Shown here: positions 31,356-51,114 of the stretch, in pieces | Numbering within the stretch: position 1 is the first letter of the stretch | Layout: each line of letters opens with the position of its first letter | From: Desulfobacteraceae bacterium | GTDB lineage: Bacteria > Desulfobacterota > Desulfobacteria > Desulfobacterales > JAABSP01 | Direction: 5' to 3' | Assembly (NCBI GenBank): GCA_011390345.1 | Contig: JAABSP010000004.1 | Span: forward strand, 1 to 64,000 | Length of the DNA: 64,000 nt | Made by a program: the position numbers and the translations under genes | The notes under the pieces: model-generated | Seen by the model: only the letters and a program-made list of their open reading frames with translations | The model's database searches: none | What the model was told of the DNA's origin: nothing

Positions 31356-32711
31356 ATGAATACCGACAATATCCAGACCCGTCTCCCCGGTTCCATCGGC
31401 GCGCTCAACTACAGAACCCTATTCGACGACCTGCCCGAAGGGGTCTTCACCATCGACATGAACTGGCGGATCACCGCATTCAACCGCTCCGCAGAGAAGA
31501 TCACCGGATACGGAAAAAAGGATGTATTGGGCCGCCACTGCTGGGAGATCTTCCGCACCGATATCTGCCGCCGCTCCTGCCCCCTGGCTACGGCCCTGGA
31601 GACCAGAGAGTCCCGGCTGGATCAGGAGGTGAATGCGGTGGACCGCAAGGGCTGCCCCCAACTGCTGCTGGTCAACGTGAGCGTGCTGAAGAACTCGGAC
31701 GGAAGGGTCATCGGCGCGGTGGAGACCTTCCGCCCCCCGGACCCGGGCCCGCCTAAGATCCCGGGCAGAAGCCAGGCCGATGCTTATTCCGGCATCATCG
31801 GCAGAAGCCCGGTCATGCAGGAACTCTTCACCCGGCTGCCGGACATCGCCAAAAGCGACGCGAATGTACTCATCACCGGCGAGAGCGGAACCGGCAAGGA
31901 TCTCATGGCAAAGACCCTGCACGAACTCTCCCCCAGAAGAAACGAGCCCTTTATGGCCGTCAACTGCGCGGCACTGGCTGAATCCCTGCTGGAATCGGAG
32001 CTGTTCGGGCACGAGAAGGGCGCGTTTACGGGTGCGGACAGGGCCCGGCCCGGCCGTTTCGAACTGGCGGCCGGCGGAACCCTCTTTCTCGATGAGATCG
32101 GCGAGTTGAAACCGCAGCTCCAGGTGAAGCTTCTCCGGGTGCTGGAAGGGCGGACCTTCGAGCGGGTGGGGGGAACAAAACCCATTCCCCTGAAGGCGCG
32201 GATTATCAGCGCGACGAATCAGAATCTGGAACAGGCACTTGCCCAAGGAAATTTCCGGCAGGATCTCTATTACCGGCTCCATACGGTTCCCCTGATCCTG
32301 CCCCCGCTGCGGGATCGGACCGAGGATATCGGGCCCCTGGTGGATCATTTCATCCATAAGTTCAACGCGCTCTACGGCAAGCGGGTCCGCTCCGTTGATC
32401 CCAAGGTGATTCAAATCTTTGCCCGATACCCGTGGCCCGGAAACGTCCGGGAGCTGGAACGGTGCATCGAACACGCCTTTGTCTTCGTCAAAGGCCCCGT
32501 AATCTTCTCCCGTTACCTGCCGGAGCTGACCGCGTTTCACCCCGCGCCCACCCCTGTCGAAAAAAGCATCACCTCCTCCCCGGCGACCGATGAGAAGAAC
32601 ATCCGCTGGGCCCTCTCCCAGACCGGCGGCAAGCGAAAAGAGGCCGCAGAACTCCTCGGCATCAGCCGCACCTCCATGTGGCGGCGGATGAAGGCCCTAG
32701 GCATGATCTGA
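31356..32711 (+). CDS. Sigma-54-dependent activator with PAS sensor domain
   Basis: 451 aa. A PAS domain (about 18-130) contains three cysteines in the run HCWEIFRTDICRRSCPLATA (Cys62, Cys71, Cys75), which could hold a redox or metal centre. The AAA+ domain (about 145-380) has Walker A GESGTGKD, the sigma-54-contact loop GAFTGAD, and Walker B LFLDEIGEL. The C-terminal Fis-type helix-turn-helix reads RKEAAELLGISRTSMWRRMK. There is no receiver domain, so it senses its signal directly. It sits next to a -24/-12 promoter driving an electron-transfer operon. Confidence 0.92.
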   Translation: MNTDNIQTRLPGSIGALNYRTLFDDLPEGVFTIDMNWRITAFNRSAEKITGYGKKDVLGRHCWEIFRTDICRRSCPLATALETRESRLDQEVNAVDRKGCPQLLLVNVSVLKNSDGRVIGAVETFRPPDPGPPKIPGRSQADAYSGIIGRSPVMQELFTRLPDIAKSDANVLITGESGTGKDLMAKTLHELSPRRNEPFMAVNCAALAESLLESELFGHEKGAFTGADRARPGRFELAAGGTLFLDEIGELKPQLQVKLLRVLEGRTFERVGGTKPIPLKARIISATNQNLEQALAQGNFRQDLYYRLHTVPLILPPLRDRTEDIGPLVDHFIHKFNALYGKRVRSVDPKVIQIFARYPWPGNVRELERCIEHAFVFVKGPVIFSRYLPELTAFHPAPTPVEKSITSSPATDEKNIRWALSQTGGKRKEAAELLGISRTSMWRRMKALGMI

Positions 32712-32753: not shown

Positions 32754-32763
32754 GTTCCCCCCT

Positions 32764-32858
32764 GAAACGCTCTCATGTTTCACCCCCGTTTCAACCATGT
32801 TTCACCGCCCCTTTCTCTGAAACATTGAAACGGGGTGGAACAGACCTCCGAAACAGAA
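32764..32858 (+). promoter_or_regulatory. Upstream activator sites of the NuoE-HdrA operon
   Basis: Six to seven copies of one element in both orientations: TGTTTCACC at 32776 and 32798, GTTTCAACC at 32788, TGAAACA at 32818, TGAAAC at 32826, GGTGGAACAGA near 32834 and GAAACAGAA at 32850. They end about 33 bases before the -24 box, the usual distance range for enhancer sites of a sigma-54 activator. Confidence 0.72.
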
Positions 32859-32890: not shown

Positions 32891-32906
32891 TGGCACGCCA
32901 TTTGCT
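32891..32906 (+). promoter_or_regulatory. Sigma-54 (-24/-12) promoter of the NuoE-HdrA operon
   Basis: TGGCAC (32891-32896), five bases, TTGCT (32902-32906): a full match to the TGGCAC-N5-TTGCW consensus with the required 10-base spacing between GG and GC. It lies about 135 bases before the NuoE-like ATG. Confidence 0.85.
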
Positions 32907-33040
32907 ATAAGGTAATGTCGTAAGCATGAGCACGAGGATCGAACCCAGGATCGAACACCAGAATCAAACAATTGAACCGAAACATTTTACAAAATTATAA
33001 ATCATCACAATTTCAAATCATCACAAGGAGGCAACCATTC

Positions 33041-33529
33041 ATGAATCCCGTCGGAACAAACCTGGAAGAGATTATGGACCGTTATCCGGGCGAGCCCGAA
33101 TATCTGATTTTTCTGCTGCAGGACATCCAGTCGAGCTACGGCTACATCTCCCCGGAATCGATGCAGAGGGTCTGCGACCGCACAGGGGTTCCCCTGACCC
33201 GGGCATATTCGGTCGCAACTTTTTATCAGTCCTTCCGGCTCGATCCGAAGGGGGAGCATGAGATCAAGGTCTGTCTGGGAACCGCATGCCACCTCAAGGG
33301 GGGGCAGCGGCTGGTGGATGAGCTGGAACGGCGCCTCCATGTCGAGGCCGGCGGCACCACAGAGGATATGCGCTTCACCCTCAATACCGTCAACTGCTTG
33401 GGCGCGTGCGCGATCTCTCCAGTGATGGTGGTGGACGATGAGTACCATCCTTCCATGTCGGTAAAGAAGATGGACAGGGAACTGAAACGGCTGCGCCATG
33501 AAGGGGAGAAGGAGGTCGGAAATGTCTGA
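33041..33529 (+). CDS. NuoE-like [2Fe-2S] subunit
   Basis: 162 aa from ATG 33041, behind AAGGAGG. The thioredoxin-like [2Fe-2S] fold has its ligands in KVCLGTACHLKGG and VNCLGACAISP. Such subunits pair with NuoF-like flavoproteins in complex I, NAD-linked hydrogenases (HndA, HydC) and formate dehydrogenases. First gene of the sigma-54-driven operon; it overlaps the NuoF-like gene by 8 bases. Confidence 0.93.
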   Translation: MNPVGTNLEEIMDRYPGEPEYLIFLLQDIQSSYGYISPESMQRVCDRTGVPLTRAYSVATFYQSFRLDPKGEHEIKVCLGTACHLKGGQRLVDELERRLHVEAGGTTEDMRFTLNTVNCLGACAISPVMVVDDEYHPSMSVKKMDRELKRLRHEGEKEVGNV

Positions 33530-35423
33530 TTCGACGGCTGCGAAACTGCAAACTCCCTGGCGGCTGACCTCTCCCGGGGATCTGGAAACCCTTCGAAACG
33601 ATATCATCGAAAGCCAGGACCCGAACCGGCCCACCATCGTGGTCTGCCACGGAAACGGATGTCTGGCCGGCGGCGGTGCGAAGGTCGCGGAAGCCTTCCG
33701 GCAGGGGCTTTCTGATGCCGGGATCAACGCCAAACTGATGCCCGGCGTCAAGACCACCGGCTGCCAGGGGCTCTGCTCCCGGGGCCCCCTGGTGACGATA
33801 CAGCCACACGGCTTCTGCTATCAGCGGGTTCAGCCGGGGGATGCTGCCGAGATAATCGAAAAGAGCGTTATGGCAACAGAGCCGGTGGAGCGGCTCATGC
33901 ACAGGGATACCAAGACCGGAGAGGTCTTCCACACCGAAGAAGAGATCCCCTTCTACCGGCTCCAGGAGCGGCGGGTGATCCAAAAGATCGGCAAGATCGA
34001 CCCTACCGACATCACCGACGCGATCGCGACCGGAGCATATTCGTCGCTTGCCAAGGTTCTTTCCACCATGACGCCACAAGAGGTGGTTCTGGAGATGGAG
34101 AAATCGGGCCTCCGGGGCCGGGGCGGCGCAGGATTTCCCACGGGCCGGAAATGGCGCTCCGCGCTCCAGGCCATCGAGAAGAAGGGCCGTCCCGTCTATG
34201 TGGTGGTCAACGGCGACGAAGGGGACCCGGGAGCATTCATGGACGGCGCGATCATGGAGGGGGACCCCCATGCTGTCCTGGAAGGGCTCATCATCGGCGC
34301 ATATGCTCTGGGCGCGGAAAAGGGGTATCTCTATGTAAGGGCAGAATACCCGATGGCGATCAAGCATCTTGAGATGGCCATGGCACAGGCCCGATCCTAC
34401 GGTCTGATGGGCGAAAACATCTTGAATTCCGGCTTCAGCTTTGATGCGAGAATCAACCGGGGCGCCGGCGCATTTGTCTGCGGCGAATCGACCGCACTCT
34501 TCACCTCCATCGAAGGCAAGGCCGGCAACCCCCGGCCCAAATACGTCCGCTCCGTGGAAGAGGGGCTATGGGGCCGGCCCACAGTACTCAACAATGTGGA
34601 GACCTGGGCCAACATCCCCCTGATCATGGGGATGGGCGGCGAGGAATACGCGAAGATCGGGGTTCCCCATTCCACAGGAACCAAGGTCTTCTGCCTGGTG
34701 GGAAAGGTGGAGAACGTGGGTCTGGTGGAGGTTCCCATGGGAACCCCCATGACCCGGATCGTCGAAGATATCGGCGGCGGGGTCGGGGGCGGCAAGCCCT
34801 TCAAGGCGGTGCAGACCGGGGGCCCCTCGGGCGGCTGCATCCCCTACAGCCTCAAAGATACGCCTGTCGATTTCGACTCCCTCACAAAGGTCGGCTCCAT
34901 GATGGGATCGGGCGCGATGATAGTCATGGACGAGACCGACTGCGTGGTGGATGTGGGCCGCTACTTTCTCAAGTTCCTGGAGGAGGAGTCCTGCGGAAAG
35001 TGCATCCCCTGCCGGCTGGGCCTCTCCCGGATGCGCGAGATCCTGGACAACTTCTCACAAGGCAAGGGGAGCGCTGCCGACATCGAGGATCTGACGAGCC
35101 TTTCCAATGCATTGAAGGACGGCGCGCTCTGCGCACTGGGCAGCAGCGCACCCAACCCGGTATTGACCACGATCCGGTATTTCAAAGACGAGTATCTGGC
35201 ACATGTGGAAGATCATAAATGTCCGGCCGGGGTCTGCAAGAGCCTGATCACCTTCGCGATAGACCCGGAGAAATGTAACGGATGCATGTCCTGCGCCCGG
35301 AACTGCCCGGCCGAGTGTATCACCGGAAAGAAGAAGGAGCCCCATGCCATTGACGCGTCTCAGTGTCTGCGCTGCGGCATCTGTCTGGAAACCTGCAAGT
35401 TCGACGCGATTTTCGTGAGCTGA
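33522..35423 (+). CDS. NuoF-like NADH-binding flavoprotein with extra ferredoxin domains
   Basis: 633 aa from ATG 33522. Order of parts: an N-terminal thioredoxin-like [2Fe-2S] domain (CHGNGCLAGGG, then CQGLCSRGPLVTI), the FMN/NADH domain (GRGGAGFPTGRKW and NGDEGDPGAFMDGAIMEGDP), an SLBB segment, the [4Fe-4S] site SCGKCIPCRLG, and two C-terminal ferredoxin clusters (CNGCMSCARNCPAECI and CLRCGICLETCKFDAI). This layout matches HndC/HydB-type electron-bifurcating diaphorase subunits rather than plain complex I. It would exchange electrons between NAD(H) and the Fe-S chain. Confidence 0.93.
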   Translation: MSDSTAAKLQTPWRLTSPGDLETLRNDIIESQDPNRPTIVVCHGNGCLAGGGAKVAEAFRQGLSDAGINAKLMPGVKTTGCQGLCSRGPLVTIQPHGFCYQRVQPGDAAEIIEKSVMATEPVERLMHRDTKTGEVFHTEEEIPFYRLQERRVIQKIGKIDPTDITDAIATGAYSSLAKVLSTMTPQEVVLEMEKSGLRGRGGAGFPTGRKWRSALQAIEKKGRPVYVVVNGDEGDPGAFMDGAIMEGDPHAVLEGLIIGAYALGAEKGYLYVRAEYPMAIKHLEMAMAQARSYGLMGENILNSGFSFDARINRGAGAFVCGESTALFTSIEGKAGNPRPKYVRSVEEGLWGRPTVLNNVETWANIPLIMGMGGEEYAKIGVPHSTGTKVFCLVGKVENVGLVEVPMGTPMTRIVEDIGGGVGGGKPFKAVQTGGPSGGCIPYSLKDTPVDFDSLTKVGSMMGSGAMIVMDETDCVVDVGRYFLKFLEEESCGKCIPCRLGLSRMREILDNFSQGKGSAADIEDLTSLSNALKDGALCALGSSAPNPVLTTIRYFKDEYLAHVEDHKCPAGVCKSLITFAIDPEKCNGCMSCARNCPAECITGKKKEPHAIDASQCLRCGICLETCKFDAIFVS

Positions 35424-35460
35424 TCCATCGAGCCAAACCGAGAAAAAAAGGAAAAAGATC

Positions 35461-36072
35461 ATGGAAAAAATAACCTTTCAGATCAACGACCGCGAGGTAG
35501 AGGCCAGGCCCGGATGGACCGTTCTGGAGACCGCAAGGGAATACGGGATCGAGATCCCGACCCTCTGCTTTCACGAGGCGGTTCTCCCCAGCGGCGCGTG
35601 CCGGCTCTGCATGGTGGAAATCAAAGACGGGGACTGGTCAAAATTAGTCGCCTCCTGCATCTATCCGGCAGCAAAGGGGATCAACGTCTATACCGAGACC
35701 GAACGGGTGAGCAATGTCCGCCGATGGATCTTCGAGATGCTCCTCGCGCAGGTTCCGGCAAGCCCGGAGATCGCGGATCTGGCGGCCCGCTACGGTGTGA
35801 CCAGGACCCGCTTCCCTGTAAAAGACCCTGAGGAGATGTGCATGCTCTGCGGCCTGTGTCAGCGGGTCTGCGAGGAGGTGGTGGGATTGTCGGCCATCTC
35901 GACCGTGGACAGGGGGGTTCACAAGAGAGTGGGCGCGCCCTTTCTCAGGCCCTCGGATGTCTGTGTCGCGTGCGGCTGCTGTGTGAACATCTGCCCCACC
36001 GGCGCAATGCGGGCCCTCTTCGATTCAATTCGGGGAGAGACCAAAACCACTTTGACCCAGTTGACCGCTTAA
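35461..36072 (+). CDS. NuoG/HoxU-like ferredoxin subunit
   Basis: 203 aa. An N-terminal [2Fe-2S] domain (IEIPTLCFHE, SGACRLCMVEI) and two [4Fe-4S] motifs (CMLCGLCQRVCEE and CVACGCCVNICPTGA). The molybdopterin-type C-terminus of NuoG is absent, so it resembles HoxU or the short N-terminal module of NuoG/HndD. It lies between the NuoF- and HdrA-like genes and would relay electrons between them. Confidence 0.9.
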   Translation: MEKITFQINDREVEARPGWTVLETAREYGIEIPTLCFHEAVLPSGACRLCMVEIKDGDWSKLVASCIYPAAKGINVYTETERVSNVRRWIFEMLLAQVPASPEIADLAARYGVTRTRFPVKDPEEMCMLCGLCQRVCEEVVGLSAISTVDRGVHKRVGAPFLRPSDVCVACGCCVNICPTGAMRALFDSIRGETKTTLTQLTA

Positions 36073-36103
36073 ACGGCCCAAGGTCTTTTGAAAGGAGAAT
36101 ATT

Positions 36104-38539
36104 ATGAACATGAACAGCTCAAGAATCGGAGTATTTGTCTGCCGCTGCGGCGATAAGATCGAGCCGCTGGTGGATCTTGAAAGCCTTGGGTCACAGATCA
36201 GCGGGATTCCTGATGTGGTGACCTGCCGGACCCTCAACTATCCCTGCACCCGGCCCGGCATGGAGGAGATCATATCCGAAGTCGCGAAAAACCGGCTGGA
36301 CCGGCTGGTGATCGCGGGTTGCGAGGGCCGCCTCATGCTGAAGAAATTCGAGACCGAACTGGAAAAGATGGGGCTGCTGAAAGGTCAGATCGACATGGTC
36401 AACGTCCGTGGGCATGTGGCATCTGTATCGGATCTGCCGCCCCAGGAGAAGGCCCAAAAGGCGGCAAAGCTGATCCGGGCATCGGCCGCCGAGCTTTCTG
36501 CACTCATTCCCACGCCTCAGGCCATCTCAAACCTGACCGGCCCCGTGATGATCGTCGGGGGTGGGATATCGGCCTACATGGCGGCAAAGGAGCTGGATCA
36601 AAACGGTATCGACTTCATGCTGTCGGCCCCGACCCATGATCCGAACGAGGTGATCCGCAGGCTCCATCTGGCCTATCCCGGAGAGCGGGAATCCCATGAC
36701 CGGGTCAAGAAGCTGGCCGTGGAAGTGGTGCAAAGTCCCCACGGAACCCTGCTGCCCCCGGGAGAGCTGACGGGTCTGTCGGGCGTCACCGGCGACTATG
36801 CACTCACCTTCCGGGACAAGGAGACCGGAGAATCCCGCACCTACCGGGCAGGGCTGATCATCGCCTGCATCGATGCGGAGCTACATCCTTCGGGCCCATC
36901 CTTCGGCCATGACGGCGAGACCGTTCTACAGCAGTCCGATCTGGAGGAGTATATCTGGACACGGGGCGCGCCCAGGGGAAGGGTTCTCTTCTGGGTAAGC
37001 GACTACGAGACGGGGCAGGAGGAGTTTGCAAAGCTTTCGGCAAAGGGCGCATGGAACATGGCCCGCCACATCCGGAGCTGCTCCCCTCAAAGCCACGCCA
37101 TGATCCTCTATGATCAGCGGATGGAGATCCCCCTGAACGCGGGAGAGCGGGCTTTGAACCGGGCACTGGGCATCGAATGGATTCCCTGCGACAAGGCGGT
37201 TCGGCCCACGGTTCAGGACCGGCAGATCACCTTCTGCGGCACCAACGACCATTTGGAGCACGATATAGAATGGGACCTGCTGGTGATCTCGCCGGAGCGG
37301 GCCCTGGGCGGGGAAGGACTCAGGACCGCGGAGGTGCTGGGGCTGGTTCACAAGCACGACCGGTTCCTCACAGGGCATCATGCAAGAGTCCGTCCCGAGA
37401 TGGTCGGAAAGGAGGAGAGCTACCTCGCGGGCAGCGGCCGGTATCCTTGTGATCTTGACGAGGCGCTGGCACAGGGCCGAAGGGCCGCGCTCAAGAGCAT
37501 CGATATGCTGAAAAAGGCCGAAAATCACGAACTCCATGTGCCCCGGGTGGTCTGCGTAGTGGACCCGGACAAGTGCATCGGCTGCGGCCAGTGCCAGGAA
37601 CTCTGCGACTGCGGCGGGATCGGCGTCGAGATCGGCCCCGGCGGGGGGCTGCCCCGGATGGTGGACCCATTGGTCTGCACCGGCGGCGGAACCTGCGCGG
37701 CAGCATGTCCCTATCACGCGCTGACCCTGCAGAACAACAGCAATGATCAGCGGGAGGCCAGAATTGCGGCGCTGTCGAGCCACCTGGGGCCCGATGAGGT
37801 GGTGGCATTCGCCTGCGCATGGGGAGGATTGCCGGCCGCGGATATCGCGGGAAAGATGGGGATGAAGTACGATCCCAATGTCCATATCCTCGGGATTCCC
37901 TGCGTGGGACAGCTCGACCCGAGCGTCATGGCCAGGGCATTTCTGGAGGGCGCGCCGGGCCTCCTTCTGGTCGGATGCCTGCCCGAGGAGTGCCACCACT
38001 CCTTTGGCGTGGATCATTCCTGGAGCCGGGTCAGTCTCATCAAGAAGCTGCTCTCCCTTTCCGGGTTCGACAAAAGGCGGATCGCGCTGGCCCATGCGGA
38101 TCTGAACAGGCCAGAGGCATTTATCCGGACTGTGGAGAGCTTCTCCCACGCGATCAAAACCCTGGGGCCCATCGAGCGGACTCCGAACAACCTGAGCAAG
38201 CTCAAGACGCTCTACAACATGGCAAGGGACAACAGCCGGGTGCGCCACCTGCTCTCTGCCGGGCTGCGCAGGCCCTGGGAGGATGTCTACCGCGGGGATC
38301 AGCGCCACGCGCTGGAATACGACCGGGATTTCACCGCAGTTCTGGTGGAAGAGTATATGCAGCAGCGCCTCATCGATGTGATGCAGAACGAGCGGCGGCC
38401 CCTGCGGATCAACGAGCTGGCAACGGCCCTTCACGAGGATGAGCGGCGGGTGGCCTCATGCCTGATGGGGATGGTTTCGGACGGGATGCTCCACTTCAGC
38501 CACAAGGAGCGGGAGGCCTATTACGCGCTGAACAACTGA
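36104..38539 (+). CDS. HdrA-like protein fused to an MvhD-like domain
   Basis: 811 aa. The N-terminus (VFVCRCGDKI, NYPCTRPGMEEI, VIAGCEGRLM) and the segment SYLAGSGRYPCDLDEALAQG are HdrA features. The dinucleotide motif GGGISAYMAAKEL is present, but the acidic residue expected at the end of the next strand is not seen (FMLSAPTHDP). Two [4Fe-4S] motifs follow (CIGCGQCQELCDCGG, CTGGGTCAAACPYHAL), then an MvhD-like domain (about 565-700; FACAWGGLPAADIAG, GIPCVGQLDP, VGCLPEECHHSFG), and a C-terminal stretch with winged-helix character (about 765-811). HdrA proteins bifurcate or confurcate electrons at FAD. No HdrB/HdrC or hydrogenase gene is in the operon, so the external partner is unknown. Confidence 0.9.
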   Translation: MNMNSSRIGVFVCRCGDKIEPLVDLESLGSQISGIPDVVTCRTLNYPCTRPGMEEIISEVAKNRLDRLVIAGCEGRLMLKKFETELEKMGLLKGQIDMVNVRGHVASVSDLPPQEKAQKAAKLIRASAAELSALIPTPQAISNLTGPVMIVGGGISAYMAAKELDQNGIDFMLSAPTHDPNEVIRRLHLAYPGERESHDRVKKLAVEVVQSPHGTLLPPGELTGLSGVTGDYALTFRDKETGESRTYRAGLIIACIDAELHPSGPSFGHDGETVLQQSDLEEYIWTRGAPRGRVLFWVSDYETGQEEFAKLSAKGAWNMARHIRSCSPQSHAMILYDQRMEIPLNAGERALNRALGIEWIPCDKAVRPTVQDRQITFCGTNDHLEHDIEWDLLVISPERALGGEGLRTAEVLGLVHKHDRFLTGHHARVRPEMVGKEESYLAGSGRYPCDLDEALAQGRRAALKSIDMLKKAENHELHVPRVVCVVDPDKCIGCGQCQELCDCGGIGVEIGPGGGLPRMVDPLVCTGGGTCAAACPYHALTLQNNSNDQREARIAALSSHLGPDEVVAFACAWGGLPAADIAGKMGMKYDPNVHILGIPCVGQLDPSVMARAFLEGAPGLLLVGCLPEECHHSFGVDHSWSRVSLIKKLLSLSGFDKRRIALAHADLNRPEAFIRTVESFSHAIKTLGPIERTPNNLSKLKTLYNMARDNSRVRHLLSAGLRRPWEDVYRGDQRHALEYDRDFTAVLVEEYMQQRLIDVMQNERRPLRINELATALHEDERRVASCLMGMVSDGMLHFSHKEREAYYALNN

Positions 38540-38699: not shown

Positions 38700-38963
38700 A
38701 TGGTATTTGAATTCGATGAACAGAAGAGCCGGATCAACAGGAAAAAGCATGGGATCGATTTCATCGAAGCGCAATCATTGTGGAATGATCCTTTTCGAAT
38801 TGAAATTCCGGCAAAAACCGTTGATGAAAAGCGTTTTCTGGTGATCGGAAAAATTGATGGCAGACACTGGTCGTCGATTATAACATACAGGAACCAAAAC
38901 GTCAGAATCATTTCGGTTCGTCGTTGCCGGAAAGAGGAAATCAGAATTTATGAAAGCGGATGA
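38700..38963 (+). CDS. brnT: BrnT-family toxin (type II toxin-antitoxin)
   Basis: 87 aa. The BrnT/DUF497 pattern is clear: FEFDEQKSRINRKKHGIDF near the start, and a beta-rich end with RIISVRRCRKEEIRIYE. BrnT folds like RelE-type RNases and stops growth until bound by BrnA. No ribosome site is apparent. The gene overlaps brnA by 14 bases, the usual arrangement. Confidence 0.9.
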   Translation: MVFEFDEQKSRINRKKHGIDFIEAQSLWNDPFRIEIPAKTVDEKRFLVIGKIDGRHWSSIITYRNQNVRIISVRRCRKEEIRIYESG

Positions 38964-39189
38964 CTTCGACAAAAAGTTTGATTCCGGAGAGGATATCGAG
39001 GCGTTTCTCGATATTTCAAAGGCCAGAAGGCCCGGTCTGGAGCAGAAAAGAGTCAATGTGGACTTTCCCATGTGGATGATTCATCGGCTGGATAGGGAAT
39101 CAAAACGATTGGGCTTGCCCCGGCAATCCATCATCAAGATCTGGATCGCCGAAAGATTGAAAGAGATTTCCGAATCCCCCATGATTTGA
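38950..39189 (+). CDS. brnA: BrnA-family antitoxin
   Basis: 79 aa. N-terminal acidic region (DFDKKFDSGEDIEAFLDISKA) and a ribbon-helix-helix-type C-terminus (KRVNVDFPMWMIHRLDRESKRLGLPRQSIIKIWIAERL, given here only as landmarks KRVNVDFP and RQSIIKIW). BrnA neutralises BrnT and represses the shared promoter. Confidence 0.88.
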   Translation: MKADDFDKKFDSGEDIEAFLDISKARRPGLEQKRVNVDFPMWMIHRLDRESKRLGLPRQSIIKIWIAERLKEISESPMI

Positions 39190-40232: not shown

Positions 40233-41132
40233 GTGAATCCCCGCCGCTTCCATATCTCCTCCCTCGATCTCGTCATCGGTCTCCTCCTCTGTGCCGGCGG
40301 GATCTATATTGGGGTCGTCATCCATGAGGGCATCGACTACGACTGGAACTGGGGGGTTATCCCCCAGTTCCTTTTCCGGTATGATACGGAGCTGGGGGAA
40401 TGGGTTCCCAATCTGCTGATGGAGGGCTTCTTCACCACCATCCGCCTCAGCTTCTGGGGAACCTTGCTGGCTCTGCTCATCGGCGTCTTCATGGGCTTTC
40501 TGCGGGTAAGCGGCCGCCTTTTCCGAAGGCTTCTGGGCGGCGCATATGTGGAATTCATCCGGAACATCCCGCCGCTGGTGCTCATCTTCATCTTCTACTA
40601 TTTCATCAGCAGCCAGATCATGCCCCTCTTCGACCCGGACGCCTTCATTCGGGAACTCTCTCCGGGGACCCAGAAGGTCATCGCGTTTTTCTTCGCGCCG
40701 GCCCAGCGGTTTTCCGCGTTTCTTTCAGCGCTGGTCACCCTTGCCCTTTTCGAAGGAGCCTACATCACCGAAATCGTCCGCTCCGGGATTCAGTCGGTGG
40801 AAAAGGGGCAGTGGGAGTCATCTGCCGCGCTGGGGCTCTCCTGGCATCAACAGATGCGCCATGTGATCGGCCCCCAGGCGGGCCGGATCATCCTGCCGCC
40901 CCTGGCCGGACAGTTCATCTCGACCATCAAGGATTCGGCCATCGTATCGGTCATCTCCATCCAGGAGCTGACCTTTCAGGGGATGGAACTGATGGCCGCA
41001 ACCTATCTCACCTTCGAGGTCTGGATCACGGTGACGGCTCTCTATCTGGTGCTGACCCTCTCCTGCTCCCTTGCGGTCTCCCGGCTGGAAACCGTCATGG
41101 CCCGTAGGGCCGCGGCCAGAAGAGGCGCCTGA
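40233..41132 (+). CDS. Polar amino-acid ABC transporter permease
   Basis: 299 aa from a GTG start. A HisMQ-type permease: TTIRLSFWGTLLALLIGVFMG, YVEFIRNIPPLVLIFIFYY, the long EAA loop (ITEIVRSGIQSVEKGQWESSAALG) and STIKDSAIVSVISIQEL. The stretch between the third and fourth helices is longer than usual (LFDPDAFIRELSPGTQ..). Neither the ATPase nor a second permease is encoded in this cluster, so it must use subunits from elsewhere. Confidence 0.92.
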   Translation: MNPRRFHISSLDLVIGLLLCAGGIYIGVVIHEGIDYDWNWGVIPQFLFRYDTELGEWVPNLLMEGFFTTIRLSFWGTLLALLIGVFMGFLRVSGRLFRRLLGGAYVEFIRNIPPLVLIFIFYYFISSQIMPLFDPDAFIRELSPGTQKVIAFFFAPAQRFSAFLSALVTLALFEGAYITEIVRSGIQSVEKGQWESSAALGLSWHQQMRHVIGPQAGRIILPPLAGQFISTIKDSAIVSVISIQELTFQGMELMAATYLTFEVWITVTALYLVLTLSCSLAVSRLETVMARRAAARRGA

Positions 41133-41133
41133 A

Positions 41134-41700
41134 ATGATCCGATCCCGACTTTTCAGCATTCTGCTTTTGATCGGAATGGTAACGATCCTCAGCAACTGCA
41201 GCGTTCTTCCACCCCGGGAAACGAGCAGCATTGTCCTTCCGGCCGGACGGCCCTGCCCCCCCCTTTACGGGCCCGATGCCCAATTCTATCGCCATTATTC
41301 ACGGAAATGGGGCATCTGCCTCGATGGCACCGAAAATCCACAGCTCATCACCACAGTGGATCGATGGCTCGGAACCCGATACAAATACGGCGGCTGCTCC
41401 CGACGGGGGGTGGACTGTTCCTGCCTGGTCAAATCGATCTACCGGGAGGTCTACGGTATAGAACTGAAACGGACATCTGCGGATATCTTTCATCAGGATC
41501 TCACCCCCATCAACACCCGGAGGCTGCGGGAGGGGGATATCCTCTCCTTCAAAACCCGGGGCAACCGGATCTCCCATATCGGCATCTATCTCAAAGACGG
41601 CAAGTTCGTTCACGCCAGCCAATCAAAAGGCGTTATGATCAACGACATCCATGAGCCCTATTACCGAAAGCGATTCTACGGCGCGGGGCGCTATCTGTAA
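41134..41700 (+). CDS. NlpC/P60-family lipoprotein 1
   Basis: 188 aa from ATG 41134, one base after the permease stop. Lipobox LSNC at about 22-25. The NlpC/P60 peptidase core has the catalytic Cys in GGCSRRGVDCSCLV and the His in GNRISHIGIYL, with a third polar position in FVHASQ. Such enzymes cut D-Glu-diaminopimelate bonds in peptidoglycan stem peptides. A closely similar gene follows. Confidence 0.9.
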   Translation: MIRSRLFSILLLIGMVTILSNCSVLPPRETSSIVLPAGRPCPPLYGPDAQFYRHYSRKWGICLDGTENPQLITTVDRWLGTRYKYGGCSRRGVDCSCLVKSIYREVYGIELKRTSADIFHQDLTPINTRRLREGDILSFKTRGNRISHIGIYLKDGKFVHASQSKGVMINDIHEPYYRKRFYGAGRYL

Positions 41701-41729
41701 GGTTTGCAACTAGGAGGAAAAGATAATAG

Positions 41730-42545
41730 ATGATATCCAAATCCTTTCACCGGTATCTGTCGATTTTTTTGACGCTCGGCCTCTGCGCCTGCACAGGGGC
41801 CTCATCTCTCAAGCTGTCCGATTCCGCGCGCTCCTTCGGGGCCGCTGCAGAGAACAAGTTTCTCTTCACTCGGCCCGACATTCCCCGGTATTCCCCTCCT
41901 AAAAATCGGGTCCATCTCGATGAAAACATCGAATTCTCAACAGAAAAAAGCCCCGCTGTGATCCTGACGCCGATGAACGCGATGGGTCCCGAGATCGATG
42001 AGACGCCCCAGGAGTTCATGAAAAGGCTGCAGGACCGGTTTGACTTCAAGGAAATCCGGGCAAGGGCGACCCCAGTGCTCCAGAGCCTCACCTTTCAGGT
42101 CAAATACTCCTCCCGCCTCGGCCTTCCCCTGGAGGGGCATGAAAACCGCTCTTTAATCCTTGCGGTGGATGAGTGGCTCGGAACCCCCTATAAGTGGGGC
42201 GGCTGCACCAAAAACGGCGTGGACTGCTCCTGTTTTGTGCGGGATGTCTATCGGAAGGTCTACGGCATCGAGCTGAAGCGCACCTCCCGGGCCATGTACT
42301 ATGAGGATCTTATTCCCATCGGAAAGAGAAGCCTGCAGGAGGGGGACATCCTCTTCTTCAAGACCCGGGGCAACCGGATCTCCCATGTGGGAATTTTCCT
42401 GAAAGATGACAAATTCGCCCATGCCAGCCTGAGCGACGGCGTGACCATCAGCGATCTCAATCATCCCTATTATCAGAAACGCTTCTGCGCCGGTGGCAGG
42501 GTGGAGGGAATCCGGGTTAGCATGAAGGGCAGTATCTCCCGCTGA
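41730..42545 (+). CDS. NlpC/P60-family lipoprotein 2
   Basis: 271 aa. Signal peptide with cysteine-containing lipobox (LGLCAC), an N-terminal extension of about 130 residues with no known fold, then an NlpC/P60 domain: WGGCTKNGVDCSCFV and GNRISHVGIFL. The catalytic domains of this and the preceding protein share long identical blocks (GNRISH, KTRGNR, YGIELKRTS), indicating a tandem duplication. The two genes are 29 bp apart. Confidence 0.9.
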   Translation: MISKSFHRYLSIFLTLGLCACTGASSLKLSDSARSFGAAAENKFLFTRPDIPRYSPPKNRVHLDENIEFSTEKSPAVILTPMNAMGPEIDETPQEFMKRLQDRFDFKEIRARATPVLQSLTFQVKYSSRLGLPLEGHENRSLILAVDEWLGTPYKWGGCTKNGVDCSCFVRDVYRKVYGIELKRTSRAMYYEDLIPIGKRSLQEGDILFFKTRGNRISHVGIFLKDDKFAHASLSDGVTISDLNHPYYQKRFCAGGRVEGIRVSMKGSISR

Positions 42546-47274: not shown

Positions 47275-50200
47275 TCAGCGCAGACAGCCCTCCTTTTCAG
47301 CATCGGGACAGGGGATCGGATTTGAAAGGATTCCGGAAAAGGGCAGCGGAGCAATTTCCCGTCCTTGTACAATGAAACGGCTGATATCCCCTTCACCAGT
47401 GCGAGCGGTGCAGGGATCTGTCAGCCATTTCGCGGCATCCAGAAAATTGGCCGGAAGCACCGTCAGGCTGCCGGTCATATCCACTTCCGGAGATTCAATA
47501 TTCACCATCCCGTCGATGCCGAGGTGCGAAGAGGCGTCGACCGCGCTGTCGGGCGATGAGAGGAAATAGTCGCTGCTGATCCGGATATTGCCGCCGGTTC
47601 CCTCCCATGCCCTGGCGATGATCCGGCTCCGGTTCAGGATAACGAATTCCGGCTTTTGAATGATGATATCGCCGCCGTTGCCCTCGCCGTACTGGACGCT
47701 GGTGGTGATCCGGCCGTCCAGGAGATAGAGCCGGTCATCGACTGCGATCTCCATCGCGCCGCCCCCGGCCTTCTCCGCAGAGGTGGATATCTGGCCGTTT
47801 TCCATAAGTGTCAGGTTGCCGGCGCTGATCCTGATCTCTCCTGCATCCCCGGCTGGAGCTTCCTTTTTTTCAGAAGAGGAATATATCCCGCTGATGAAGG
47901 TATCCGGGGCCTCGGGATTTCCCTCCTCGAATTCCTGCTGGCTTTCCAGGGGTGGAGCCGACGGAGTGCTGCTGCCGGATATCCGGATATTTTCCGATGC
48001 CCGGACTTCGATGCTGCCGCTTTTGCCGGGGCCCAGGGTGCTGCTGGTGATCCGGCCGCCGTCCGACAGGGTCAGGTCTCGGGTCTCAAGTTGAATACTC
48101 CCCCCTTTTCCGGCCGACTCCCCCTCCCCTTCGGACCTTGCAAAGATGCCGCTGGAGAAGCCGTCCCGGTTCTGGCCGTGGGGGTTGCCGCCGGTCAGAA
48201 CCATCTCATCGGCGGTAATCTTTATCAATCCGCCGTCCCCGGTTCCGCGGGTGCCGGCCGTGACCCCTGCCCCGCCGGAGAAGCGGAGGGACTGGGCCTG
48301 AATCTCGATGTTGCCGGCCTCTTTGGCATACTCCTCGGTGCTGAGCGCGGAGGTGTAGATCCGGCTGGCAAAGCCGTCGCGGTCCGTTCCGGAAAAATCG
48401 ACCGAGCGGGCGCTGATCCGCACATCACCGCCCCGGCCACCGCCGTCTGAAGTGTTGCCGATCCATCCGCCGTCGGCAAAGATCAGCGTTCCGGTTTGGA
48501 TGGCCACATCTCCCCCGCGTCCGGCATCTTCATCAGAACCGTCGGCTCTTGCGATGATCCCGCTGCCCTGGCCGTCTTCATCATAACCGGTAAACCGAAC
48601 CGAATCCGCAGCTCGAATCGAGACATCTCCGCCGCGGCCAGTGCCAAAGGTGGAGCTGTCTATGAGTGCGCCGTCCGCTAAGGAGAGATCGCCGGTTTCA
48701 ATGGCCACATTCCCGGCATCCCTGGAATAGCTGGTCTCTGCACTGACGAGGATGCGGGAGCCGAGGCCGTCGCCGTCGTTTCCGGAAAGCCGGGTCCAAC
48801 CCGGTGCGGTGATGGTAACCGCCCCGCCCCCTCCGCCGCCGTAGGATGCGCTTTCGATGACCGAGCCGTCCCCCAGCGCGAAATTTCTTGTTTGGATGGC
48901 GATGTTTCCGGCATCCCCGGCCTCATCATATTCCTCCCCTTCGGCACGGGTGTAGATACCGCTGCCCTGGCCGTATTCATCGGTTCCCGAGAATCGAACA
49001 GATGAAGCCGTCTCCACGGTCACATCTCCGCCCCGGCCTCCGCCGTAGGAGGAGGAGCCGATCTGCGCGCCGTCCGTCAGTTCAAGCTGATCCCCTTCCA
49101 GATGGATGATCCCGGCATCGCCTGCATCCGCGTCCCACCCTTCGGTGCTGGCCAGTACACTGCTGCCGCCGCCTGCAATTGCGATCCTCAGCCCCTTGAG
49201 CCGGATAGAGCCCGCGTCTCCGCCGCCCCAGGTTGCGCTGGTGATGACCCCTCCCTCCGCAACGGTTATATCGGGAGCCTCCAGACGGATCTCTCCCGAA
49301 TCTCCGCTATCATAATCCTCCCCCAGAGAACTCGAGGAGAGGCCGCTGGAACGCATCTCCCCGGAAGGGGCATCGGGATTTTCGCCGGAGATGAGAATCG
49401 AATCCCCTGCGGTCAGGGTTACGCTCCCCCCCCTGCCGGGCCCCCCGGTGCTCGCGGTGACGCCGCCGCCGTCGGTAAAGGAGATAGATCCGGCATTGAT
49501 TTCGATATTTCCCGCATCCCCGGCATCTTCATCCTCACCGAGCGCGGAGGTGTAGATCCGGCCCGCATAGCCGTTTGCATCCGTGCCCGAAAACCGGACC
49601 GCGCCTGCTCCCCCGATGGTCACATTTCCGCCGCTTCCGGGGCCGTCTGAGGTGTTGCCGATCCAGCCGCCGTCGGTCAGGGTCAGATCCCCGGTTTCAA
49701 TAAGGATATCTCCGCCGTCTCCGGCATCTTCATCGGGGCCGTCGGCCCGGGCGATCATCCCGCTCCCCTGTCCGCTCCCGTCGAAACCGGAAAGGGAGAC
49801 CAGGCTGTTGGCCCGGATGGTGATATCTCCGCCCCTGCCGGGGCCGAAGGTGGAGGTGTCGATGAGTGCGCCGTCCGTCATCTCCAGCGCTTCGGCCTCG
49901 ATCTGGATGGCGCCCGCGTCCTTGGCGTAATCGGTCTCCGCGCTCGTATTGATCCGGCTTCCGCTTCCCCGCTCTGATGTGCCGGAGAGGCCTACCACTG
50001 AGAGGGCCTTCAGGGTGATATCTCCGCCGCGCCCGCCGCCAAAGGAAGCAGCCTCCAGCACCGCGCCGTCATCGAGATGGATTCGATCGGCCTCGATATG
50101 AATATCCCCGGCATCTCCGGCCTCTTCATATTCCTCTCCGGAGGCCCCGGTTCGAATCCCCGCGGTTCCGCCGAAGGAATCGCTGCCCGAAAAGAATATC

Positions 50201-51114
50201 CCCTCTGAAGCCTGGATGGATACGGACGCGGCATCTCCGTTTCCGTAGCTCTCGGCATAGATGCTCCCGCCGTTTGTAAAATCCGCGCTTCTGGCCTTAA
50301 TATCCACCTTGCCGCCGTCCGTGTCGCCTTCGGTCTCGGCCCAGAGGGCGCCGCCATCCACAACCAGTTCTCCGCCCCGGATGTAGATCGATCCCGCCCC
50401 TTCGCCGCTCACATCGATCCGGCCCCCCACAAGGTCGATCCGCTCCCCTGCGGAAAGCTTCACTTCTCCCTCGCCGGCCTGCAGACCTCCCCGGATCTCG
50501 ATGCGGCCGGCTTCGATGCCGATCTTTTCTCCGGTCGGAACCGATAACTCGCCGTCAACCCTTACCAAAGCCGAAGCCGAAGCCGACCCCTCCCCCAGAA
50601 AGCCGAAATCGGCCGGGGGAGCAGTCGAAAGGAATTCCCCCTGAACCGGTTCGGCATAGAACCGATCAATCTCCCCCAGCTTCAGATGATCTGCGGTGGA
50701 GGCGTAAAATGATCCCGTAAGATCGAGCCCTGCATTGGGGCCGAAAACCATGCCGGCCGGATTGAGCAGGTAAAGATTCGCACCCGGAACCGTGGATCGG
50801 AGAATGCCGTCTATCGAGGAGACGGCTCCGTCCGTGACCCGTCCGATGATATTTCCCACGGAATCGGGACCGCTGAAGGTCGCGCTCCCGCCGGTCTCCA
50901 CAGAGAACTTTCCGAAGCTGTGGAAGAGGTTGGCCCCGGCCTGCCGTCCCATCTCGGCAGATATCTCGTAATCGGGCCCCGGCAATGTCCCGGCCTGTCC
51001 CATAGAGCCGTCCAGCGTTACCTGTCCATGAAGGATCGGGGAGAAAATGATCTGCGGTATGAAAGCGATTGCAAAAAGGAGAAGCCGAATCATCCGATGC
51101 ACCCTTATTGTCAT
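47275..51114 (-). CDS. Filamentous-haemagglutinin-type TpsA exoprotein with nested repeats
   Basis: 1279 aa. A signal peptide (IRLLLFAIAFIPQIIFSPILHG) is followed by a TPS secretion domain (about 28-170) with the conserved motifs FSVETGGSATFSG, NIIGRVTDG, LYLLNPAGMVFGPNA and LTGSFYAST. The passenger, about 200-1200, consists of Gly/Asp-rich beta-helix repeats (pattern DAGDAGxIxIxAxxLxLxDG). Such proteins cross the outer membrane through a TpsB (ShlB/FhaC) partner and act as adhesins or toxins. No TpsB gene lies nearby. It ends 20 bp from the convergent M23 gene. Confidence 0.9.
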   Translation of the reverse strand: MTIRVHRMIRLLLFAIAFIPQIIFSPILHGQVTLDGSMGQAGTLPGPDYEISAEMGRQAGANLFHSFGKFSVETGGSATFSGPDSVGNIIGRVTDGAVSSIDGILRSTVPGANLYLLNPAGMVFGPNAGLDLTGSFYASTADHLKLGEIDRFYAEPVQGEFLSTAPPADFGFLGEGSASASALVRVDGELSVPTGEKIGIEAGRIEIRGGLQAGEGEVKLSAGERIDLVGGRIDVSGEGAGSIYIRGGELVVDGGALWAETEGDTDGGKVDIKARSADFTNGGSIYAESYGNGDAASVSIQASEGIFFSGSDSFGGTAGIRTGASGEEYEEAGDAGDIHIEADRIHLDDGAVLEAASFGGGRGGDITLKALSVVGLSGTSERGSGSRINTSAETDYAKDAGAIQIEAEALEMTDGALIDTSTFGPGRGGDITIRANSLVSLSGFDGSGQGSGMIARADGPDEDAGDGGDILIETGDLTLTDGGWIGNTSDGPGSGGNVTIGGAGAVRFSGTDANGYAGRIYTSALGEDEDAGDAGNIEINAGSISFTDGGGVTASTGGPGRGGSVTLTAGDSILISGENPDAPSGEMRSSGLSSSSLGEDYDSGDSGEIRLEAPDITVAEGGVITSATWGGGDAGSIRLKGLRIAIAGGGSSVLASTEGWDADAGDAGIIHLEGDQLELTDGAQIGSSSYGGGRGGDVTVETASSVRFSGTDEYGQGSGIYTRAEGEEYDEAGDAGNIAIQTRNFALGDGSVIESASYGGGGGGAVTITAPGWTRLSGNDGDGLGSRILVSAETSYSRDAGNVAIETGDLSLADGALIDSSTFGTGRGGDVSIRAADSVRFTGYDEDGQGSGIIARADGSDEDAGRGGDVAIQTGTLIFADGGWIGNTSDGGGRGGDVRISARSVDFSGTDRDGFASRIYTSALSTEEYAKEAGNIEIQAQSLRFSGGAGVTAGTRGTGDGGLIKITADEMVLTGGNPHGQNRDGFSSGIFARSEGEGESAGKGGSIQLETRDLTLSDGGRITSSTLGPGKSGSIEVRASENIRISGSSTPSAPPLESQQEFEEGNPEAPDTFISGIYSSSEKKEAPAGDAGEIRISAGNLTLMENGQISTSAEKAGGGAMEIAVDDRLYLLDGRITTSVQYGEGNGGDIIIQKPEFVILNRSRIIARAWEGTGGNIRISSDYFLSSPDSAVDASSHLGIDGMVNIESPEVDMTGSLTVLPANFLDAAKWLTDPCTARTGEGDISRFIVQGREIAPLPFSGILSNPIPCPDAEKEGCLR

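Follow-up and report, generated by a model that had tools for sequence, protein, structure and literature searches.

The 64,000-nucleotide (nt) stretch analyzed here (the window; Desulfobacteraceae bacterium, GenBank assembly GCA_011390345.1, contig JAABSP010000004.1, positions 1 to 64,000 of the forward strand) carries an open frame of 811 residues in which an HdrA-like protein is fused to an MvhD domain and a C-terminal tail. Genes for BfuC, BfuB and BfuA stand directly upstream, and the reading favored here, with confidence a little better than even, is that the four genes specify a Bfu enzyme in which the HdrA-MvhD fusion is the fourth subunit, probably does not bifurcate and relays electrons to an acceptor encoded elsewhere. 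This would suggest a familiar type of energy-coupling machinery that serves a different electron partner. A first-pass annotation, made from the sequence alone, had recognized the fusion, and its open frame (36104-38539) was confirmed; its statement that the gene has no partner genes was wrong, as the three upstream genes are NuoE-, NuoF- and NuoG-N-like. The host genome is 4.79 Mb in size and 97% complete. Together with a PAS/sigma-54/Fis regulator, the genes form a five-gene block on the + strand (regulator, BfuC, BfuB, BfuA, HdrA-MvhD fusion). Coordinates of the four subunit genes, followed by the domains of the fusion, were as follows.

32972..33529, + strand: BfuC, NuoE-like, thioredoxin-like [2Fe-2S] protein (Pfam PF01257, E 6.4e-48; NCBIfam HoxE/NuoE)
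33498..35423, + strand: BfuB, NuoF-like; a [2Fe-2S] domain at the N-terminus and a two-[4Fe-4S] domain at the C-terminus; putative site of bifurcation (Pfam; B2 ligands)
35461..36072, + strand: BfuA, NuoG N-terminal-like, one [2Fe-2S] and two [4Fe-4S] clusters (Pfam; invariant Cys)
36104..38539, + strand: HdrA-MvhD-tail fusion, 811 residues (open frame, Pfam, profile alignment)
36104..36529, + strand: HdrA N-terminal domain (hhalign)
36536..37543, + strand: flavin-type (TrxR-like) domain (hhalign and 52-sequence alignment)
37547..37738, + strand: C-terminal ferredoxin domain (sequence alignment)
37784..38173, + strand: MvhD (FlpD) domain (PF02662, E 1.3e-32)
38174..38536, + strand: C-terminal tail, homologous to the winged-helix tail of BamF (hhalign against BamF)

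Relatives of the fusion protein

Of 389 genomes searched within the class, 33 contained a match at E 1e-100 or better; of 395 searched within the phylum, 49 contained one at E 1e-60 or better, and in 25 of these the match reached E 1e-100. Fifty-two sequences were aligned (the window protein, 31 loci from the class round and 20 from the phylum round), which were 35-100% identical. The partial class-search matches G317 and G368 were left out of the alignment, as were the full-length matches G578 and G697 and the fragments G390, G434, G469 and G498 from the phylum search. Weaker matches (26-29% identity, many with frame breaks) were assumed to be ordinary HdrA and set aside. Counts below are of sequences and not of independent events, since some rows are near-identical.

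The HdrA part

A 32-row family profile was aligned by hhalign with HdrA of M. thermolithotrophicus (5odc chain A) end to end (E 1.6e-58, 25% identity), and Cys13, 15, 48 and 73 of the fusion corresponded to Cys11, 13, 46 and 71 of that protein. The four cysteines were present in all 51 rows that cover them. A single 71-residue gap in the 5odc alignment marked the absence of the inserted two-[4Fe-4S] ferredoxin domain, and all 52 sequences were equally short there. Cys 386, 399, 403 and 404 of M. thermolithotrophicus HdrA, which belong to the flavin-domain cluster, had no counterparts in the fusion. Within the flavin domain, the GxG motif was intact (Gly152 and Gly154, 52/52), and the acidic residue and the GGR motif were changed. 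The first-pass annotation had noted that the acidic residue of the flavin adenine dinucleotide (FAD) site after GGGISA is missing, and this was upheld: the position is A175 in the window protein, with Asp in 3/52 and Glu in 0/52.

Residues E356 and K409 have been described as markers of the bifurcating HdrA flavin (PMC9430772, PMC12054007). The first was retained in the window protein as Glu281 (Glu in 45/52, Asp in 5/52). K409, the N5 lysine, and the inserted ferredoxin domain were absent; Asn318 (37055-37057) takes the place of the lysine, which was kept in 4/52. These losses, with that of the acidic residue, support the earlier expectation of a FAD site or an acceptor unlike those of the textbook complex. 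The missing insert, the missing flavin-cluster cysteines and the loss of one cysteine from the second C-terminal ferredoxin motif had been overlooked. Cys449 (codon 37448-37450) falls within the stretch that aligns with HdrA's C-terminal FAD motif and was Cys in 51/52, with Lys in one relative.

The first C-terminal ferredoxin cluster has a full ligand set under the usual ligand pattern. In the second motif, CTGGGTC, the second cysteine is replaced by Gly528 (37685-37687; Gly 49, Glu 2, Asp 1, Cys 0), and an additional Cys503, not found in M. thermolithotrophicus HdrA, was present in 49/52. As the motif retains three cysteines and Cys503 is available, a [3Fe-4S] or a re-ligated [4Fe-4S] cluster is possible. 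Cys491, 494, 497, 501, 525 and 535 were Cys in 52/52, and Cys531 in 50/52.

The same changes appeared in all 52 aligned sequences, which is far beyond chance, and no stop codons fell within full-length matches. The altered sites are a fixed character and not decay. Two HdrA-MvhD copies were observed in some genomes (G277, G517, G573, G675, G711); the second copy of the f77 genomes is only about 35% identical to the window protein and has the same altered sites.

The MvhD domain and the tail

The CxWC motif reads CAWG (37814-37825, codons TGC GCA TGG GGA), as had been noted earlier. Across the family, residue 574, the fourth position of the motif, was Gly in 39, Ala in 8, Ser in 5 and Cys in none. 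For comparison, 35 other MvhD domains from the same genome and its relatives were aligned, in which five cysteine positions were conserved. Residues 571, 600 and 630 were Cys in 35/35, residue 625 was Cys in 20 and selenocysteine in 15, and residue 574 was Cys in 32, selenocysteine in 1 and another residue in 2. Positions 571, 600, 625 and 630 were thus Cys in 52/52 of the window family and in 35/35 controls (selenocysteine counted as Cys). The family has lost the cysteine at position 574 alone, and the four remaining cysteines would be enough for a [2Fe-2S] cluster, which need not be dead. The altered motif of the first-pass annotation stood, and the loss of the cluster was not established, because ordinary MvhD has five conserved cysteines and the four never-varying ones are kept.

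A recent origin of CAWG from a selenocysteine codon was considered and was not supported, since GGA was not in excess among the glycine codons at residue 574 (GGC 23, GGT 8, GGA 5, GGG 3). In-frame TGA codons were observed in ordinary MvhD genes (L001, L002 and L004 in the same genome, L145-L173 in relatives) at position 625 in 15/35 and at 574 in 1/35, consistent with selenocysteine. Another protein of the host genome (contig C41, L005), which we take to be QmoB and a member of the Qmo complex, is likewise an HdrA-MvhD fusion without Cys at the fourth CxWC position (CEND); unlike the window protein, it has a different locus and a different sequence.

The tail of the window protein gave no match in a Pfam scan. 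The family MvhD domain and tail aligned with BamF along their whole length (hhalign, 232 columns, E 1.2e-23; tail alone E 1.2e-4, probability 55%), and one BamF tail matched winged-helix Pfam models, including HTH_5. An AlphaFold model of the tail alone (predicted template modeling score, pTM, 0.42) was too poor to show a winged helix or to support a fold search, so the assignment, which agrees with the winged-helix-like tail proposed earlier, is drawn from BamF homology. The tail was largely gone in 5/52 rows, one of which (L018) is ended by a contig edge.

The upstream Bfu core

Fifty-two loci were examined, and BfuC, BfuB and BfuA stood directly upstream on the same strand in all 42 with at least 3300 nt of upstream sequence. 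This one fixed partner set gives no direct support to the earlier suggestion of a docking hub for several dehydrogenases. HdrB, HdrC, hydrogenase and formate dehydrogenase gave no Pfam match within the five-gene block, as the first-pass annotation had stated, and neither the BamB tungsten enzyme nor BamC or BamD was found in the block or among nine other scanned window proteins.

The NuoF domain, the N-terminal [2Fe-2S] domain and the C-terminal two-[4Fe-4S] domain of BfuB were all present, and its best solved relatives include B subunits of bifurcating hydrogenases (8a6t, HydB, E ~1e-212; 7q4v; 7t2r). The B2-cluster ligands of the window protein are H569, C482, C575 and C580, and the histidine and three cysteines were found in 42/42 BfuB rows. 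Both the domain set and these ligands are among the traits given for true Bfu enzymes in PMC9304861, and the histidine is absent from non-bifurcating homologues. Judged by its sequence, the NuoF-like protein is a complete bifurcating BfuB, and electrons from reduced nicotinamide adenine dinucleotide (NADH) would not have to be split at the HdrA site of the fusion. Twelve ligand cysteines of BfuA were invariant in 49/49 rows. The window BfuA has three clusters, which would map to A1, A2 and A4, and lacks PF10588; three clusters together with an extra subunit correspond to Type 2 Bfu.

In a BfuB tree of 68 rows, the family BfuB formed one clade of 42 rows (support 100/99), placed with weak support (76/82) as sister to HdrA- and MvhD-associated BfuB. 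Two further BfuB-like loci were observed in the same genome, and small contigs carried parts of a complex I-type set. One of these BfuB proteins (L139, contig C13, 15116-16957; 51% identical) has a DRTGG-domain protein and a hybrid histidine kinase nearby, and is possibly sensory or of a different Bfu type.

Flanking genes and regulatory region

A fixed downstream partner of the fusion gene was looked for across loci and none was found; most loci were without NfnAB- or HdrABC-like genes. NfnA/NfnB-like genes lay directly downstream in five loci (L042, L043, L044, L072, L075), and HdrABC-like genes adjoined the block in L066, L068 and L070 and lay further off in L059. These neighbors are the best leads to the acceptor, and since they differ by lineage, the acceptor may vary between lineages.

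Upstream of BfuC, the following features were recorded.

31356..32711, + strand: PAS - sigma-54 activator - Fis-type helix-turn-helix regulator, first gene of the conserved block (Pfam)
32762..32856: cluster of GTTTCA / TGAAAC repeats (by inspection of the sequence)

Where 5200 nt or more of upstream sequence was present, 35 of 39 loci had a regulator homologue there on the same strand. The repeats are likely binding sites of the activator. Downstream of them, between the regulator and BfuC, TGGCACGCCATTTGCT at 32891..32906 (+) was found by pattern scan to match the -24/-12 sigma-54 promoter consensus. The same scan upstream of BfuC gave a site in the window and in 6/38 relatives, in which start positions are rough; the operon may begin before the regulator in other loci.

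Proposed mechanism and alternative explanations

The four genes at 32972-38539 would specify a single soluble complex of the Bfu type, whose parts, and how far each is conserved, are read from the sequences. NADH and reduced ferredoxin would exchange electrons at the flavin mononucleotide and B2 cluster of BfuB, and mid-potential electrons would pass from BfuA to the MvhD domain, the C-terminal ferredoxin of the HdrA part and the flavin domain. From the flavin domain they would go on to the [4Fe-4S] cluster at the N-terminus and then to an external acceptor, unless the whole path runs in reverse. The HdrA part would act without bifurcation, as a one-lane relay or adaptor, because it has lost the N5 lysine, the insert at which ferredoxin docks and the cluster of the flavin domain. 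The acceptor gene would lie outside the block, and the fusion would derive from, or share its origin with, the HdrA/MvhD-tail pair found in Bam-like complexes. A more specific proposal, put forward tentatively, is an unrecognized Bfu class, widespread in one phylum, in which a formerly bifurcating HdrA has become a one-lane outlet, the ferredoxin cluster is converted (to [3Fe-4S] or Cys503-ligated [4Fe-4S]), the flavin is uncrossed or missing and the third substrate is new to the Bfu list.

Several points weigh against this reading. Gene order is the basis on which the four proteins are assembled into a complex. FAD binding may have been lost altogether, which would make the relay route uncertain. 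At the K409 position, four relatives have Lys and eight have Arg, so that bifurcation is conceivable in those relatives. The absent insert is hard to read simply, given that the HdrA proteins of Sporomusa and Moorella, called bifurcating in PMC9430772, also lack the inserted ferredoxin domain in their C-terminal part, one of them keeping both E and K. At the fifth B2 ligand position the 42 BfuB rows have Ser (36), Ala (3), Thr (2) or Gly (1). Other Bfu enzymes are reported to have Cys or Thr there (PMC9304861), and the B2 cluster may therefore differ here. AlphaFold models of the window protein and two relatives (pTM 0.35) were too weak for fold searches, and no candidate acceptor was established from the block or the flanking genes.

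It is possible, though we think it unlikely, that catalysis on a small third substrate, such as a quinone, a disulfide or NADP, takes place in the fusion itself, through the altered flavin site and Cys449. The conservation of Cys449 in the segment aligned with the FAD motif, the lack of any other enzyme gene conserved beside the block and the 17 Bfu clades listed without a known third substrate in PMC9304861 agree with such a role, against which stand the Lys at 449 in one relative, the NfnAB-like or HdrABC-like neighbors in some lineages and the finding of no substrate-site homology.

Tandem bifurcation, proposed for Bam (PMC9304861), would have BfuABC merge the electrons of NADH and ferredoxin and the HdrA flavin split them again. 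The parts list is the same as BamEFGHI, E356 is mostly kept and GxG is complete; however, K409 is replaced in 48/52, the inserted ferredoxin domain, which is the low-potential exit of textbook HdrA, is missing throughout, and the flavin-domain cysteines are without counterparts. Tandem bifurcation is accordingly judged improbable.

The conserved regulator, the -24/-12 match between it and BfuC and the winged-helix tail could together be read as a redox sensor, which would signal the redox state of NADH and ferredoxin to the neighboring PAS/sigma-54 regulator, the tail being its regulatory part. Sigma-54 regulators, however, commonly control adjacent catabolic operons, the same tail occurs in BamF, a subunit of a metabolic enzyme, and it is largely missing in the five rows counted above; we regard a sensor as very unlikely. 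A decaying, pseudogene-like copy or a sequencing artefact, to which the absence of several textbook residues might point, is effectively dismissed by the same changes in 52/52 across the phylum, the nearly invariant remaining cysteines and the full-length matches without stops.

Read as a Bfu enzyme with an HdrA-MvhD relay, the block is a defined four-gene target for work on the third substrate of a Bfu-type enzyme, in hosts that matter for anaerobic carbon and sulfur turnover.

Other features of the window

A small open reading frame at 38700-38990 resembles a BrnT-type toxin, and the start of another reading lies close behind it, an arrangement like that of toxin-antitoxin genes. Neighboring genes at 41071-42545 encode two NlpC/P60-type proteins that resemble each other (Pfam match shown for the second only), and there is a 1279-residue protein with a two-partner secretion (TPS) domain at 47275-51114 on the minus strand.

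Comparison with known systems

HdrA2 and type Ia HdrA share the order HdrA then MvhD with the window protein (NF040770, E 4.6e-86, far below its cut-off), which differs from them in lacking the inserted ferredoxin domain and K409, in having a tail and in a block without HdrB and HdrC. The HdrB and HdrC partners of HdrABC were absent from the block; HdrB/HdrC-like genes lay near 5/52 loci (L059, L066, L068, L070, L123).

With Type 2 Bfu (HydABC; PMC9304861) the block shares the FeS domains and B2 histidine of BfuB, BfuC, a three-cluster BfuA and an extra subunit. The only HdrA-bearing member described in that source, as excerpted, is Bam-Bfu, whereas the extra subunit here is an altered, fused HdrA-MvhD. 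Units named 'nuoEFGmvhD' were reported for the sulfate reducer Desulfotignum phosphitoxidans (PMC4046663); going by that name the gene order is the same, and cofactor sites are not described in the excerpt. Altered HdrA/MvhD cofactor sites were not found described in the excerpts of the open-licence literature searched. Within that literature, units of that order were already listed and the altered cofactor sites of the HdrA-MvhD subunit are apparently new.

The closest system is class II benzoyl-CoA reductase (BamE-I). Nine BfuB loci outside the family (L180-L188) have an MvhD gene just upstream, and a 20 kb stretch of one such genome carries genes for AFOR, an FeS protein, a CCG protein, HdrA, MvhD, BfuC, BfuB and BfuA, an order that fits the Bam subunits as named in PMC13101534 and PMC9304861. 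BfuCBA corresponds to BamGHI, and HdrA with winged-helix-tailed MvhD to BamE and BamF. The BamF-like MvhD proteins of these loci have CHWU (TGA) in 9/9 and a tail of about 120 residues, and their selenocysteine stands at the exact position of the glycine in the window protein. In contrast to BamE-I, the window block is without BamB, BamC and BamD, its HdrA and MvhD are fused and placed after BfuA, and the HdrA is short and altered. From the Bam-type gene order and the alignment of the MvhD domain and tail with BamF, the block resembles a Bam-like enzyme reduced to its electron-transfer half, in which the tungsten part is absent, HdrA has been joined to MvhD and the HdrA portion has been remodeled. 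The family thus offers a natural experiment on HdrA, in which comparison with BamE and textbook HdrA would separate the sites essential for bifurcation from those that serve wiring only.

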